From NCBI RefSeq assembly GCF_010671605.1, contig NZ_JAABOO010000003.1:623993-687992 (forward strand): a stretch of 64,000 bases of DNA. The letters run 5' to 3'. The notes below the pieces were generated by a model, which did no database searches, was not told where the DNA came from, and was given only the letters and a program-made list of their open reading frames with translations. The stretch's first letter is position 1. Each line of letters opens with the position of its first letter. Origin of the DNA: Leptobacterium flavescens (lineage in GTDB: Bacteria; Bacteroidota; Bacteroidia; Flavobacteriales; Flavobacteriaceae). Both the position numbers and the translations under genes were made by a program. Shown one piece after another: positions 22,366 through 27,213 of this stretch.

Positions 22366-23475
22366 ATGAGTAACCGGTCTACCTCATTAACTCAATTAGC
22401 GCTCCGAAAGTTTAAAAAGAACTTTTGGGGCGTTTTAAGTTTTGTCTTTATCTCCTTATGTGGTCTGATGGCCGTTTTTGCCTATGTCCTGGCACCTGAT
22501 TCCTCAAGGAATGCAAATCAGATGCATTTGTCCATACATTCAAAAGCTCCGGGTTTTAAGGTAAAAATGCTAACGATCCCCTCTCAGAATGAAGCCTCCC
22601 AATCTGCGTTGGAGAAACTGATATTCGGAACTTATATTAACGATACGGAGATCCCCATATCGACCTATAGTGTGGAAGGTGAAGAGCTGGTAATTTCCGA
22701 ATATATCGGTAACGGAGAAAAGGGAATGGAGAAGAAAGTGTCTTTAGAAGATTTTCCGGCAGGCCTCAGTACAGATGAGATCGTAAAAAAGTATATCTCC
22801 GATAAAAAATTCCTTCTCGGAACAGATAAATACGGAAGAGACCTTCTGAGCAGAATGCTGGTAGGGGCACGTATTTCCTTTTCTATCGGGTTTATTGCAG
22901 TGTTTATTTCCCTGCTTATCGGAATATTTTTGGGAGCAATGGCGGGTTACTTCGGAGGTAAAACAGACACTGTTATTATGTGGATCATTAATGTTACCTG
23001 GTCTATTCCTACTTTACTGCTTGTAATTGCTATTACTCTTACCCTCGGAAAAGGTTTCTGGCAGGTATTTATTGCCGTTGGATTAACGATGTGGGTAGAA
23101 GTGGCCAGGGTGGTACGCGGACAGGTATTAAGCGCCAAGGAGATGCAATACGTTACGGCAGCAAAGGCCCTTGGGTTTAGTGATCTGAAGATCGTTTTCA
23201 GTCATATTTTACCTAATGTTATGGCGCCGATCATTGTGATCTCGGCAGCAAACTTTGCTTCGGCTATCCTGATTGAAAGCGGACTCAGTTTTCTGGGGAT
23301 AGGAGCACAACCTCCAATGCCAAGCTGGGGAAGTATGATCAAGGATCACTACAGTTATATTATCCTGGGAAAACCATATCTGGCAGTTATTCCCGGACTG
23401 GCTATTATGAGTCTGGTAATGGCATTTATGCTTATGGGGAACGCCCTGAGGGATGCTTTGGACGTAAAAAATTAA
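22366..23475 (+). CDS. ABC transporter permease, OppC/DppC type
   Basis: This 369-residue protein has an OppC N-terminal segment with one helix, a periplasmic stretch of about 100 residues, then the BPD_transp_1 core with five helices at about residues 160-365. The cytoplasmic EAA-type motif is seen in YVTAAKALGFSDLKIVFSHI, followed by LIESGLSFLGIGAQPPMPSWG, typical of OppC. It would form half of a peptide or nickel-type importer channel, but no ATPase, OppB or binding-protein gene is nearby. It is probably co-transcribed with prc. Confidence 0.88.
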   Translation: MSNRSTSLTQLALRKFKKNFWGVLSFVFISLCGLMAVFAYVLAPDSSRNANQMHLSIHSKAPGFKVKMLTIPSQNEASQSALEKLIFGTYINDTEIPISTYSVEGEELVISEYIGNGEKGMEKKVSLEDFPAGLSTDEIVKKYISDKKFLLGTDKYGRDLLSRMLVGARISFSIGFIAVFISLLIGIFLGAMAGYFGGKTDTVIMWIINVTWSIPTLLLVIAITLTLGKGFWQVFIAVGLTMWVEVARVVRGQVLSAKEMQYVTAAKALGFSDLKIVFSHILPNVMAPIIVISAANFASAILIESGLSFLGIGAQPPMPSWGSMIKDHYSYIILGKPYLAVIPGLAIMSLVMAFMLMGNALRDALDVKN

Positions 23476-23524
23476 CTTCCTGTATTTATTTAAAGTTTAA
23501 GACGCTTGCGTATTTCTATAAAGA

Positions 23525-23556
23525 CCGAAAATGAGATCTTGCGACCCCATTTTCGG
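23525..23556. terminator. Hairpin between convergent oppC-like and peptide genes
   Basis: A perfect 9-bp stem, CCGAAAATG (23525-23533) with CATTTTCGG (23548-23556), encloses a 14-base loop in the 105-base gap between two convergent genes. There is no strong T-tract on either strand, so termination is plausible but not certain. A shorter ACGC/GCGT stem at 23502-23511 precedes it. Confidence 0.5.
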
Positions 23557-23580
23557 ATATATACTTAACTGTTACGGTTA

Positions 23581-23781
23581 TTAAAAACAAAACCAGCAGC
23601 ATCCGCCTGTATAGACATTTCCGCCTATTGCAAAGCAATGAGCCGCATTGTCTACATTACATCTGCTAAGCCCGCCTGTGCCTCCGCAAGGACCTAACTT
23701 TATACCGCTCCCGCTGATTTTAGTTTGTTCGTTTTTGCTTAACGATTGTACTCCTTTAAGATTCTTTAATTTGTTTAACAT
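23581..23781 (-). CDS. Cys-rich bacteriocin/RiPP-type precursor peptide 1
   Basis: This 66-residue peptide has a leader MLNKLKNLKGVQSLSKNEQ followed by TKISGSG, matching the LKxLKGxxxLSKxEQxxIxG pattern of Bacteroidota bacteriocin-like precursors, with Gly-Ser-Gly in place of the usual Gly-Gly. The predicted core is Gly-rich with six Cys, ending GGCCWFCF. It is the last of three related genes downstream of the C39-like/VKOR/thioredoxin fusion gene, so disulfide formation is the likeliest maturation. It is oriented towards the convergent oppC-like gene. The core has no family I can name. Confidence 0.75.
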   Translation of the reverse strand: MLNKLKNLKGVQSLSKNEQTKISGSGIKLGPCGGTGGLSRCNVDNAAHCFAIGGNVYTGGCCWFCF

Positions 23782-23825
23782 GGTTGTAATTTTTAAATAT
23801 TTATTAATAATGTTGTTTAGAAAAG

Positions 23826-23921
23826 TGAATTGGTAACATTTACCATATTTCTGAATTCCCTTAAAGGCCTTCTGGTTGCAGCATATGGGGTAAATATCAG
23901 AGAGTAGCTGTTACCAATTCA
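23826..23921 (-). repeat. Long interrupted stem-loop between peptide genes 1 and 2
   Basis: An outer perfect 12-bp stem joins 23826-23837 with 23910-23921. Directly inside it, 23838-23844 pairs with 23889-23895 (7 bp) and 23845-23848 pairs with 23883-23886 (4 bp). A 2-base bulge (23887-23888) and a 14-base bulge (23896-23909) interrupt the 3' side. The 23 pairs sit in the 181-base spacer, downstream of peptide 2 and about 45 bases upstream of peptide 1. It may be a 5' leader RNA structure or a mobile palindromic element. Confidence 0.6.
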
Positions 23922-23962
23922 TCAATTAAGAGCCAATATCAGGCCCTTTTAATATAGCTTCC

Positions 23963-24145
23963 TTAGAAACCGCAAATAGGATCAGTCCGATCTGGACATA
24001 CGCAATCACAGGGTATGTAAAAGATTTGGCCGAGGTTGTTCGCACAAACTCCTAAATTTGTACTTACTCCTGCTCCATTGATGCGATTAAGCTCTTCCCT
24101 GCTTAGTTTCTGAGTTCCTTTTAGTTTTAAAATGTTTTTTAACAT
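23963..24145 (-). CDS. Cys-rich bacteriocin/RiPP-type precursor peptide 2
   Basis: This 60-residue peptide has a leader MLKNILKLKGTQKLSREELNR followed by INGAG, clearly related to peptide 1. The remaining segment is about 35 residues and holds five Cys, including an IPCDCVCPD run and a C-terminal ICGF. The cleavage site would lie after the Gly-Ala-Gly motif. The 5' leader shares a hairpin and about 50 bases of similarity with that of peptide 3. It is in the same direction as the VKOR-fusion gene. Confidence 0.72.
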   Translation of the reverse strand: MLKNILKLKGTQKLSREELNRINGAGVSTNLGVCANNLGQIFYIPCDCVCPDRTDPICGF

Positions 24146-24171
24146 GATTTAAAATTTCTATGGTTTATACT

Positions 24172-24195
24172 CCTGAACATTTACAGACACTCAGG
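24172..24195 (-). promoter_or_regulatory. Conserved leader hairpin upstream of peptide 2
   Basis: Five pairs (CCTGA with TCAGG) enclose a 14-base loop, 26 bases before the peptide 2 start. The same layout occurs before peptide 3 at 24428-24451, with loops differing at only two positions and one compensatory change in the stem. It could be an RNA element controlling translation or RNA processing. Confidence 0.5.
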
Positions 24196-24221
24196 TTCGT
24201 GTCTTTTGCGACTAGTCAATT

Positions 24222-24398
24222 CTAGTGTGCACAGGGTGAATCATGTGGAAGTTCACATAAAGGAAAACTCCAGTTCCCTCCACATGCAATACAATCAGAT
24301 TCATTGGTGGGCCAGGTTGGGCAGCCACCGCTAATACTCTTCTGCTCTTCTTTAGCTATTAGCTGAGCATTTTTTAATTTTAAAATGTCTTTCAACAT
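24222..24398 (-). CDS. Cys-rich bacteriocin/RiPP-type precursor peptide 3 (double-Gly leader)
   Basis: This 58-residue ORF reads MLKDILKLKNAQLIAKEEQ then KSISGG, a classic double-glycine leader, followed by a core of about 33 residues beginning CPTW. The core contains five Cys and two Trp and ends SPCAH. The leader is closely similar to those of peptides 1 and 2. It starts 80 bases downstream of the VKOR-fusion stop on the same strand. The double-Gly site is the target of C39 peptidase ABC exporters; none is seen in this window. Confidence 0.75.
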   Translation of the reverse strand: MLKDILKLKNAQLIAKEEQKSISGGCPTWPTNESDCIACGGNWSFPLCELPHDSPCAH

Positions 24399-24427
24399 AA
24401 TTTAAAGTTTTGATGGTTTTGTGTTTT

Positions 24428-24451
24428 CCCGAACCTTTATAGACACTCGGG
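24428..24451 (-). promoter_or_regulatory. Conserved leader hairpin upstream of peptide 3
   Basis: Five pairs (CCCGA with TCGGG) enclose a 14-base loop nearly identical to that of 24172-24195. Compared with that hairpin, the middle pair has changed from T-A to C-G, preserving pairing. It lies 29 bases before the peptide 3 start and 27 bases after the VKOR-fusion stop. A 12-bp perfect palindrome TCCTTGCAAGGA is next to it at 24462-24473. Confidence 0.5.
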
Positions 24452-24478
24452 GATATGTCTGTCCTTGCAAGGATATCT

Positions 24479-26092
24479 TTATGTTTTTATCAGTTCGCTA
24501 TTACCCTGTTTTTTTTGAGAGTCAGATGAGTATGCAGGTGGTGCTGCGATCAGCTCATCTATAAATAAACCGAGGTCCTTGATCTCGTATTCCTTAGGGA
24601 AATAGTATCCGTTTATAACCGTGGCAGGAGTGTAATTAATGCTGTTGGCTTTACACCACTCCGATTGTGCTTCCAGGAGGTGTTTGTAGGTCAGTTTTTT
24701 ACTGATACCGAACTTCTTCTGCCAGGAAGCTATATTCCTGTCCTGAAACCATTCTTTAAAGGCATCCAGGCATTTTTCTTCATCTTCCAGGAAGAATTTT
24801 TCCAGCAAGCGATGGGAGATCTGAGTCCCTTCATTGTTCTCGCTTTGGTAATTGACATTAAAAACGAAGGAGATGTGTATATCTTCGGCATGTGTATCCA
24901 GAAGACTTGTATAAGTTTGAAAGGAAGCTTTGCAAAAACCGCAAAGCGGGTTGGTAATGGCTATAATTTTTAAGGGAGCTTTTGGATTCCCGAAACTTAT
25001 AAGCGAACCTGAATCATAGATCTTATCGTCTTTAACAAGTGCCTTTTTTGTGAGCAAACCGGTAAACAATTCAAGGTTTCGCTTGAATTTCATAAAATCG
25101 ATCCGGGCAGATCTTAAACTGTGATTTTCCTTTATCAGAGGCTTTAATCTTGTCCATAAAAAAAGCGATGCAGCAAAAGCGAAAACAAAAAAGGAAACTT
25201 CTTTGACAGGGAGATAAAAAGGAGTATTCCCGATGAGTGTTAGCGAAAACTGGGTAACTATCACTGCTGCGATCCCTAAACAGAGCAGGCACCATTTTTT
25301 TACGGAATACCACTGATAGAATACAGAGTAGATCAATACCGGCACAGAAAGTGCCCCTATACTCATTAAAATAGAATTCTGATAGCCGTTAAACAACAGA
25401 AACAGGATAAGGGTGGCAGAATAGGAGATAGCCATATCGCTTAAGGAAACCAGACCGAATAACTTTGCTCCGTTAGATTTGATCACATCAGAACAGCTCG
25501 TATTCGAATATTTGGTACAGAGCTTAACAATATTGGCTGTATTTAAACCCATTTCTTCTCTGGCGATCAAAAAACTAAGATAGGCCCCTCCAAAGGAGAG
25601 AAGATAATAGAGGACTGGGATCAGTTCAAAATTGTTCCAGCCGTACAGAAAAAGTGAAGCCACAATCAAAAGTCCACCGACCAGCTTAAAATTCGATATC
25701 CTTTTGATCTTTTTATCGAGCTCAGGTTTTTGCGGCTCTATAGCTATGATTGTAGGGCCCCATCTGGGCTCAAAATCTTCCAGTTGTATTTTTTCTTTAT
25801 GCCCTTTATCGCTATATATGCGTATCCTGGTATTTGAAGGGTGTCGGCTTACCATAACCAGCTGTTTTCCTTCTTCGGTCCCTACAAGGGTCAGGAAATG
25901 CTCAGGGAGCTGATCGAGGTATTCTTTAGGTATGGAGGCCGCAATGTTTTCTATTTTAAAATAATCCAGAGTATCTGTAATCGATTTTAAAGAAGGATAA
26001 TCGGGATGGGCCAGCAATTGTAATTTTAAATCCTGAGAGTCAATGTTTAAGTAATTGGACTCAACAAGATATTTCAATACGAGTTTATCCAT
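24479..26092 (-). CDS. C39-like / VKOR / thioredoxin fusion, predicted thiol oxidase for secreted peptides
   Basis: This 537-residue protein has three parts. Residues 1-118 resemble a C39 double-glycine peptidase fold (LLAHPDYPSLKSITDTLDYF; LEDFEPRWGPTIIAI) but lack the catalytic Cys and His. Residues about 135-315 are a VKOR domain with about six helices, loop Cys192/Cys200 and the CLLC active site Cys268/Cys271. Residues about 350-515 are a DsbA/thioredoxin-like domain with Cys384-Gly-Phe-Cys387. VKOR-Dsb fusions make disulfides in the periplasm. Three Cys-rich peptides with related leaders follow, so they are its probable substrates, with the C39-like part perhaps binding leaders. Confidence 0.88.
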   Translation of the reverse strand: MDKLVLKYLVESNYLNIDSQDLKLQLLAHPDYPSLKSITDTLDYFKIENIAASIPKEYLDQLPEHFLTLVGTEEGKQLVMVSRHPSNTRIRIYSDKGHKEKIQLEDFEPRWGPTIIAIEPQKPELDKKIKRISNFKLVGGLLIVASLFLYGWNNFELIPVLYYLLSFGGAYLSFLIAREEMGLNTANIVKLCTKYSNTSCSDVIKSNGAKLFGLVSLSDMAISYSATLILFLLFNGYQNSILMSIGALSVPVLIYSVFYQWYSVKKWCLLCLGIAAVIVTQFSLTLIGNTPFYLPVKEVSFFVFAFAASLFLWTRLKPLIKENHSLRSARIDFMKFKRNLELFTGLLTKKALVKDDKIYDSGSLISFGNPKAPLKIIAITNPLCGFCKASFQTYTSLLDTHAEDIHISFVFNVNYQSENNEGTQISHRLLEKFFLEDEEKCLDAFKEWFQDRNIASWQKKFGISKKLTYKHLLEAQSEWCKANSINYTPATVINGYYFPKEYEIKDLGLFIDELIAAPPAYSSDSQKKQGNSELIKT

Positions 26093-26132
26093 TTTAAAAA
26101 TGTTAATTGTGTGTATTAGCAGCTTTTACTGC

Positions 26133-26157
26133 AATCATTTGTACGAAATAAATGATT
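26133..26157. promoter_or_regulatory. Operator-like inverted repeat upstream of the VKOR-fusion gene
   Basis: AATCATTT (26133-26140) and AAATGATT (26150-26157) are perfect inverted repeats with a 9-base spacer, about 40-65 bases before the start of the VKOR-fusion gene. The spacing is compatible with a dimeric regulator site. No regulator gene is adjacent. Confidence 0.4.
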
Positions 26158-26355
26158 TGTTATGGTTGGAACTTTCTATAAAATTAAGAAGAGTATAGAT
26201 TAAGAAGTCAAAATCATCGACAAATTACATAATATTTAACGTTTACTTAAAAGATGCCTTGTTTTGAGCTTTAACTGTATTATATTGGAATAAAAATACC
26301 GTAGTCAGAGTGTTTTTTTACCTCAATTACGGATGTTTTTTTAAACTTTTTGCAA

Positions 26356-26403: not shown

Positions 26404-27213
26404 ATGAGAAAGAAATCCTTTTATTCTGTTGCCATAGTGCTGCTGACTATTTTGTTTTTTGTGATCGAGGAGTATGTGCTGACAGAACCGGAAAACAGGA
26501 CTCCGGTTGAGGAAAATGACCCTGAGCCAGGAGAAGGGATCAATACTTTTTATCTTCCGACCTCTACAACACGTCAGGTAGTACATCATAATTACTACTC
26601 CCTGTCTTACGATGAAGCACATGAACAGGCAGAGTGGGTGGCGTACGAGCTTAAAAAAGCACATCTTTCCCAAAACAATATAAAACGGCCGTATTTTATC
26701 GAGGATCCCAAGCTGAGATCGCGTTCTGCAGATTGGAGGAATTACAAGAATTCCGGCTACGACAGAGGGCATTTATGTCCGGCAGGAGACAGAAGGTTTT
26801 CTGTTCCGGCTTATAATGAGACCTTTTATACCAGTAATGTAACTCCTCAGAAACACAGCTTTAACAGCGGAATATGGAACAGACTGGAGCAAAAGAGCAG
26901 ATACTGGGCAAAAAAATATGACGGGATCTTTGTGGTAACGGGAGGTATTCTTAACAAGGAGCTGAAAACTATCGGAAAGGAAGGAGTATCTGTACCGGAG
27001 TACTTTTATAAGGTCTTGCTGGACAACCAGAACGGGAATTATAAGATCATAGGCTTTCTGATCCCTCATGAAGAAAGTAGTAGTTCCCTGGAAGACTTTG
27101 TAGTTCCGGTAGACAGGATCGAGGAGCTTACCGGGATAGATTTTTTTACCAAACTGGATGATCGGATAGAGGAAAAACTGGAATCAATCAATGGAAGCAG
27201 TGACTGGTTTTAG
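26404..27213 (+). CDS. DNA/RNA non-specific endonuclease, membrane-anchored or secreted
   Basis: This 269-residue protein has an N-terminal hydrophobic segment (about residues 8-22) that serves as an anchor or signal. The NUC-type beta-beta-alpha-metal nuclease core carries DRGHLCPAGD at about 120-129, with His123 as the predicted base, and Asn154 and Glu162 in FNSGIWNRLE as metal-site residues. It would degrade nucleic acids outside the cytoplasm. Its stop codon is one base from the convergent rodA stop. No immunity gene is adjacent, so a nutrient-scavenging role is more likely than toxin use. Confidence 0.9.
   Translation: MRKKSFYSVAIVLLTILFFVIEEYVLTEPENRTPVEENDPEPGEGINTFYLPTSTTRQVVHHNYYSLSYDEAHEQAEWVAYELKKAHLSQNNIKRPYFIEDPKLRSRSADWRNYKNSGYDRGHLCPAGDRRFSVPAYNETFYTSNVTPQKHSFNSGIWNRLEQKSRYWAKKYDGIFVVTGGILNKELKTIGKEGVSVPEYFYKVLLDNQNGNYKIIGFLIPHEESSSSLEDFVVPVDRIEELTGIDFFTKLDDRIEEKLESINGSSDWF

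Follow-up and report, generated by a model that had tools for sequence, protein, structure and literature searches.

On the minus strand of a 64,000-nucleotide stretch of the Leptobacterium flavescens genome (assembly GCF_010671605.1, contig NZ_JAABOO010000003.1, positions 623,993 to 687,992; hereafter the window), three short genes for cysteine-rich peptides with a common leader follow a gene for a protein joining a C39-like peptidase domain, a vitamin K epoxide reductase (VKOR) and a thioredoxin domain (the fusion). It is likely that these genes form a leader-guided disulfide system that faces the cytosol and serves exported peptides, a variant of the disulfide-bonded double-glycine bacteriocins. 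The first-pass annotation of the window, made from its letters and open reading frames (ORFs), had proposed both components, and both stand: the peptides are minus-strand ORFs of 66, 60 and 58 residues with 6, 5 and 5 cysteines, and the fusion lies directly upstream of them, as confirmed by its ORF, Pfam and a structure match. The features of the locus are as follows (R1 is the covariance model described below):

24479..26092, minus strand: fusion protein gene, 537 residues; C39-like domain, six-helix membrane part with VKOR bundle, DsbA-like thioredoxin domain (ORF, Pfam, 112 homologous ORFs, AlphaFold2 model, fold matches)
25706..26092, minus strand: C39-like degenerate peptidase domain, residues 1-129 (structure match; Cys/His pair lost)
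25148..25690, minus strand: six predicted membrane helices, residues 135-315, with VKOR cysteines C192, C200, C268 and C271 (DSSP of the model; Cys conservation; 6wv8 match)
24530..25051, minus strand: DsbA/ScsC-like thioredoxin domain, residues 348-521, with CGFC at 384-387 and P489 (5idr_C match; invariant residues)
24428..24460, minus strand: H-type pseudoknot before the 58-residue peptide, stems AGACAT/GTGTCT and CCCGA/TCGGG (R1 match of 46.5 bits, itself an R1 training sequence; family covariation)
24222..24398, minus strand: leader peptide gene, 58 residues, 5 Cys (ORF; seed of the leader profile)
24172..24204, minus strand: H-type pseudoknot before the 60-residue peptide, stems AGACAC/GTGTCT and CCTGA/TCAGG (R1 match of 34.0 bits, itself an R1 training sequence)
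23963..24145, minus strand: leader peptide gene, 60 residues, 5 Cys (ORF; seed of the leader profile)
23581..23781, minus strand: leader peptide gene, 66 residues, 6 Cys (ORF; seed of the leader profile)

Leader peptides and their pairing with the fusion

All three window peptides begin M-L-(N/K)-x-(L/I)-x-x-L-K-x-x-Q and close their leader in I-(S/N)-G; the leaders end SISGG, RINGA and KISGS, with an exact Gly-Gly in one of the three. Across loci, an iterated leader profile gives the consensus MLKNILNLKGAKKLSKNEQKNINGGG, which is hydrophobic at -4 and -12 and carries Gln at -7 in place of Leu; passages of PMC6363468 describe a groove in LahT150 that takes the leader side chains at -4, -7 and -12. 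The family consensus places a Gly-Gly leader on a short precursor, as in PCAT-exported double-glycine bacteriocins. Behind the leader the cores are hypervariable, with as many as 16 peptides in a single locus (L129). That the window cores are unrelated, as first described, is only partly right: the 58-residue core has clear four-Cys orthologues, judged by eye, in three other loci (L006, L064 and L173). Known families cover few of these peptides: among 77 of 236 distinct peptides scanned (E up to 0.01), at most six match NCBIfam (NF047798, 'bacteriocin-like protein') and at most four match Pfam.

Cysteine number is strongly biased. After thinning, 188 of 204 different peptides have an even number, six being commonest. 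Among the peptides found by the leader profile, counts of 4, 5, 6, 7 and 8 occur in 64, 13, 120, 5 and 22, as against 106, 54, 30, 13 and 8 cases among control small ORFs. The excess of four over five cysteines is therefore partly ordinary; that of six over five and seven is not.

Co-occurrence across genomes, on which the annotation had staked its proposal, is non-random. Of 397 genomes of the family, 56 carry the fusion (one of them, G340, only as a weak fragment), as do 42 of 395 drawn across the phylum, the two samples overlapping. A set of 112 fusion loci was assembled, comprising the window, L005 and L006, which had served as search seeds, and 109 others. The iterated leader profile found 267 matches in this set, 240 on the strand of the fusion and 27 opposite; 225 of the 240 were counted downstream of the fusion, and 26 of the 27 opposite-strand matches are without core cysteines. 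At least one same-strand leader peptide with two or more cysteines is present in 96 of the 112 loci (93 of 109 without the seed loci), counts that stand uncorrected for the kinship of loci and genomes, and the peptide-bearing loci span several families and orders. A looser pattern, read by eye, adds five loci (L110, L124, L141, L167 and L171), bringing the total to 101 of 112.

The genome itself, 4.21 Mb in eight contigs, holds a second fusion (C3:351602-353140), 37% identical to the first and followed downstream by three further Cys-rich leader peptides, and in Flavobacteriaceae bacterium R38 the first cluster recurs in the same order, with six peptides and the same neighbour genes alongside. 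Taken with the 96 loci, these two observations put the pairing of peptides and fusion beyond chance. A protein-side search of the genome gave 14 leader matches, some of them orphan peptides away from either enzyme; like the second cluster and the RNA element discussed below, the orphans go beyond what was first annotated.

A separate family of Gly-Gly peptides (e.g. KLTFEDF...ISKKEQKTIKGGD, no Cys) lies on the opposite strand beside the clusters of L103, L135, L139, L140 and L142, and forms arrays in L103, L135 and L139.

Domains, redox cysteines and orientation of the fusion

Pfam finds VKOR in residues 161-285 of the window fusion (46.5 bits, cut-off 27.5) and Thioredoxin_4 in residues 365-512 (37.4 bits, cut-off 23.2). 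The N-terminal domain is without a Pfam match in the window protein; the paralogue matches Peptidase_C39 at 27.3 and 24.3 bits in two scans (cut-off 22). Seven of ten homologs scanned also match this model, four of the seven above the cut-off, and in all seven the match begins at profile position 16 or later. Eight residues are invariant in 96 aligned homologs, namely C192, C200, Q260, C268, C271, C384, C387 and P489; the cysteines read as two VKOR pairs plus the CGFC of a thioredoxin, and P489 is taken as the cis-proline of that domain. The six redox cysteines C192, C200, C268, C271, C384 and C387 are 96-99% conserved in all 112 ORFs, some of which were trimmed at a late ATG.

An AlphaFold2 model built on the homolog alignment (mean predicted local distance difference test, pLDDT, 90.8; predicted template-modelling score, pTM, 0.79) was compared in parts with known structures by VIA-align. 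Residues 1-129 superpose on the PCAT1 C39 domain (8vp5_B, Z 13.9, root-mean-square deviation (rmsd) 3.2, 125 aligned) and on leader-bound LahT150 (6mpz_B, Z 13.2, rmsd 2.7, 116 aligned). The thioredoxin part matches ScsC (5idr_C, Z 18.4, rmsd 2.6, 162 aligned) and also resembles BdbD. Residues 154-293 match the VKOR-like 6wv8 (rmsd 3.5, 138 aligned) with a Z of 13.6, near the tool's warning level for helical bundles; the VKOR assignment is carried by the Pfam match and the cysteines. By sequence, fold and cysteines together, the fusion is a VKOR.

The N-terminal domain appears to have kept the fold of a leader peptidase and lost its chemistry. The PCAT1 match begins at chain residue 22 and that of LahT150 at residue 28, next to the LahT150 nucleophile, given as Cys27 in passages of PMC6363468. 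When the 112 ORFs are aligned to the genome's own C39 exporter, 8 have Cys, 1 has His and 18 have Asp at the respective triad positions; no ORF has both Cys and His. The catalytic Cys/His pair of the C39 fold being lost, the domain should therefore not cut, and we regard it as a C39 fold and not as an active C39 peptidase. Eight fusions keep a Cys at the nucleophile position with His absent (L108, two in L110, L112, L113, L117, L119 and L121).

The model has helices, by DSSP, at 135-153, 157-180, 217-235, 239-264, 269-287 and 296-337, and these six put the N-terminal domain, the C-terminal domain and both VKOR cysteine sites on one side. In the 100 homologs of at least 480 residues, that side has on average 10.20 membrane-adjacent Lys and Arg and the opposite side 0.69, and the domain side is the higher in all 100. 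Given the positive-inside rule, this bias places the working side of the fusion in the cytosol, and the C39-like domain, the VKOR cysteines and the thioredoxin domain therefore probably all face it. Such an orientation fits a leader-binding domain because PCAT exporters, according to passages of PMC6959990 and PMC6363468, take the leader off at the cytosolic face.

The obvious alternative is an ordinary periplasm-facing VKOR-thioredoxin oxidase that acts after export, its C39-like domain merely holding the exporter or the peptide in the periplasm. Precedent speaks for it: the periplasm is where the working side of known bacterial VKOR-thioredoxin fusions lies and where disulfides usually form, and the VKOR and thioredoxin parts resemble known periplasmic thiol enzymes. 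Against it, the charge bias is the opposite of what it predicts: Lys and Arg on the Cys side exceed those on the other in 107 of 107 fusions, as against one of 14 ordinary Bacteroidota VKORs, the remaining 13 being as expected for a periplasmic active site. Moreover, nothing resembling a signal peptide was noticed ahead of the N-terminal domain (no predictor was run), and the leader for which a C39 fold is made is removed at the cytosolic face. By charge prediction the fusion would not be such an oxidase, and we judge this explanation unlikely.

A pseudoknot ahead of the peptide genes

Many of the peptide genes are preceded by an H-type pseudoknot (e.g. AGACAC-AAA-CCTTGA-GTGTCT-TTAAATG-TTCAAGG) that ends about 20-30 nt 5' of the start codon, often with a short hairpin in front of it that is weaker (67.6% of cells paired). 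A strict scan finds it before 111 of 238 peptide genes, as against 11.4 expected in shuffled sequence, so that some of the 111 are chance. In the window it is present before the 58- and 60-residue peptides, and none was found upstream of the 66-residue peptide. A 12-bp inverted repeat (GAATTGGTAACA ... TGTTACCAATTC), noticed by eye, lies ahead of this last gene at window positions 23829-23927 on the minus strand.

To find the element elsewhere, a covariance model with the outer stem only (R1) was used; its searches scored 150 of 1825 first-look candidates in this genome and 13 per genome in the family, and absence is accordingly not firm. In this genome R1 gave at least ten matches (E up to 10), nine of which precede Cys-rich leader peptides and one of which (L218) does not. 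Four of the nine lie in the two clusters and were R1 training sequences; the other five, all away from the enzyme clusters, stand before orphan peptides (C4:257435, C1:711124, C2:281942, C3:287344 and C1:1521603). Nine of the 14 genome leader matches thus have the element, those without it among the R1 matches being the 66-residue window peptide, the middle peptide of the second cluster, C1:324245 and C4:268436 (2 and 4 Cys), and a 29-residue piece (C3:621614).

The element tracks the fusion across genomes. It occurs in at least 45 of the 397 family genomes: 40 have both element and fusion, 5 the element only, 16 the fusion only and 336 neither (Fisher p 2.8e-36, kinship ignored). In the phylum sample it was found in 7 of 296 genomes, all of the same family, and its distribution looks narrower than that of the fusion.

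Covariation was assessed on 51 outside elements, made up of 45 family matches outside the fetched fusion loci and six of this genome, its own rows counted once. A leader peptide with two or more cysteines follows 45 of the 51, allowing ATG, GTG, TTG, ATT and ATA starts and a loose leader pattern, and three (L237, L253 and L260) adjoin broken pieces of the fusion gene. The inner stem, absent from the R1 structure though R1 carried its majority letters, pairs in 94.7% of cells, with both-side changes in all six pairs; over both stems there are 98 double-change cells, as against 20.3 in shuffles. A second set of 75 elements (A2) was chosen by a scan requiring both stems, and its covariation is biased. 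The G-U pairs point to an element of RNA and not of DNA.

Known RNA families do not account for it: Rfam gave three matches in window positions 23400-26300 (E up to 10), all under gathering scores and none at the elements, and seven loci searched at gathering scores yielded two tRNAs only. Transcription terminators were considered and rejected, as no T-run follows (by eye) and the distance to the start codon is nearly constant. From its position we would guess that the pseudoknot probably controls translation of the peptide mRNAs together. It would then be a probable new regulator, and it is already a search tool, having led, when used alone, to peptide genes away from enzyme clusters. By eye, the pseudoknot also stands before Cys-rich peptides with lanthipeptide-like leaders (L242, L266 and L274).

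Export, proposed mechanism and known systems

The window had been described as lacking an exporter, and indeed no C39 exporter match falls within its 64 kb. This absence is local. Counting matches that take in the peptidase domain, 75 of the 112 loci have a C39 ABC exporter no more than 8 kb away; it shares the strand of the fusion in 73 and lies downstream in 72, and 71 of the 75 also have HlyD. The search of the whole genome that had been recommended returned one full exporter, on another contig (C1:864154). As the only full C39 exporter of the genome it is the natural candidate for export in trans.

Such a setting argues against the idea that the fusion serves general envelope protein folding and that the peptides are its neighbours only through a shared accessory island. 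The thioredoxin domain does resemble ScsC and BdbD, thiol enzymes with no link to peptides, and the fusion is accessory, being found in 56 of 397 family genomes. Yet same-strand peptides accompany it in 96 of 112 loci across several families and orders, its C39-like domain and the exporters nearby indicate leader peptides, and the peptide-linked RNA element occurs largely in genomes that also have the fusion; we hold this explanation to be very unlikely.

The exporter raises a further alternative, in which the Cys-rich cores are modified otherwise, for example with lanthionines or as metal-binding peptides, and the fusion keeps their cysteines in the right redox state. The sole full C39 exporter sits in what we take to be a class I lanthipeptide locus (L172, G000:C1:856154-872516), with LanB in two genes, a LanC-like gene and HlyD, and LanB homologs occur in 3 of the 112 fusion loci. 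However, the genome's LanB has no match in the remaining 109, the window included (tblastn, E up to 1e-6), so by the LanB criterion the fusion loci would not be class I lanthipeptide clusters; cysteine numbers are mostly even, and the fusion carries a full oxidase relay with six conserved cysteines. Alternative modification of this kind strikes us as most improbable.

We return, then, to disulfide formation guided by the leader. The annotation's suggestion that the fusion holds the leader of these peptides and oxidises them in that state gains support from the lost Cys/His pair in the C39 fold, from domains that share one, probably cytosolic, side and from the mostly even cysteine counts. The genome would encode a dispersed set of disulfide-bonded peptides for export, and the window locus would be one of the two clusters in it that include the enzyme. 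In the proposed sequence of events, the fusion would span the inner membrane so that the C39-like domain, the VKOR active site and the thioredoxin domain all face the cytosol; the degenerate C39 domain would hold the double-glycine-type leader uncut and present the Cys-rich core to the CGFC thioredoxin domain, which would join the cysteines of the core in disulfides and would itself be re-oxidised by the VKOR bundle, with the electrons passing on to the membrane quinone. In a PCAT-type ABC exporter, the catalytic C39 domain would then read the leader again and cut at the Gly-Gly site; the peptide that is exported would most likely be bacteriocin-like or serve in signalling. Many of the peptide mRNAs carry the pseudoknot in their 5' leader, where it would probably coordinate their translation.

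Several observations weigh against this scheme. The bacterial cytosol is reducing, and an oxidase facing it is unusual. Eleven of the 112 loci have no convincing same-strand peptide even by the looser pattern (among them, L099 ends soon after the fusion and L120 has an opposite-strand peptide), and 37, the window included, have no C39 exporter within 8 kb, seven of these with less than 5 kb of sequence downstream. The number of cysteines is odd (five) in two of the three window peptides. The charge bias is a predictor and no measurement, and one of the 14 ordinary VKORs, the short VKOR-like protein L192, breaks the pattern with a reversed bias of its own (6 vs 3), perhaps as another inward-facing VKOR. 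The kinship among loci and the modest VKOR fold score noted above belong here too. Finally, a passage on PCAT1 describes a cargo that is unstructured in the cavity, which makes the export of a disulfide-bonded peptide uncertain; in favour of the scheme, the PCAT1 barrel is described as roomy enough for a small protein.

The closest relatives in function are the bacteroidetocins. Passages of PMC6671954 describe, likewise in Bacteroidota, a Gly-Gly leader, a Cys-containing core, a dedicated thiol oxidoreductase and a C39 exporter, together with a five-transmembrane protein; deletion of the oxidoreductase gene beside the peptide and exporter attenuates the toxin. There, in two locus types, the oxidoreductase is a separate gene serving one four-Cys peptide, whereas here a degenerate C39 domain, VKOR and thioredoxin are joined in one probably inward-facing protein with large peptide sets and an RNA element.

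The enzyme itself invites three comparisons. The VKOR bundle is matched by profile to the VKOR-thioredoxin fusions 4nv6 and 3kp9 ('VKORC1/thioredoxin domain protein'; E 1.5e-5 and 0.0016), presumably of Synechococcus origin, with which the protein shares a C-terminal thioredoxin domain; it differs in an extra N-terminal membrane helix and the C39-like domain, and in a charge bias reversed relative to ordinary Bacteroidota VKORs, a comparison set that excludes the Synechococcus protein. With the C39 domains of PCAT/AMS exporters (PCAT1, LahT150) it shares the fold, here found off any ABC transporter and with Cys and His paired in none of the ORFs. The C39-like domain of HlyB is likewise an inactive C39 fold that tethers its substrate, as part of an exporter; here it is part of an oxidase. 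As for disulfides on the cytosolic side, Hibender's 2017 study of the Aeropyrum pernix VKOR is said to have found them in two compartments, the second being the cytoplasm, in an archaeal protein with no C39 domain and no link to peptides. A conserved-domain model of a VKOR with a C39-like N-terminus may already exist.

Among the papers listed from the literature searched, which mostly leaves out subscription papers, none described such a system, and no paper in that literature joins 'vitamin K epoxide reductase' with 'peptidase C39', or VKOR, C39, thioredoxin and Bacteroidetes. Neither VKOR nor thioredoxin appears in the main text of a mining study of Bacteroidales ribosomally synthesised and post-translationally modified peptides (PMC10352776), and neither Bacteroidetes nor a peptidase in that of a VKOR phylogeny (PMC4555120). 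It is tempting, and perhaps not far from justified, to propose a new class of leader-guided modification: an inverted VKOR, with a substrate-binding domain derived from a leader peptidase now dead, would make disulfides in the cytosol ahead of export, one leader would be read twice, by the oxidase and then by the exporter, and peptides scattered genome-wide would be marked by an undescribed pseudoknot coordinating their synthesis; we offer this only tentatively. If true, there would be a dedicated leader-guided disulfide machine at the cytosolic face, where stable disulfides are unexpected, and large families of disulfide-rich peptides could arise by simple genetic means. The system may also offer an answer to how bacteria without a general Dsb system make disulfide-bonded exported peptides, a lack described for Bacteroides in a passage of PMC6671954.

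Beside the cluster, the divergent neighbour gene at window positions 26404-27213 on the plus strand resembles what we assume to be a secreted DNA/RNA non-specific nuclease, with a DRGH motif.

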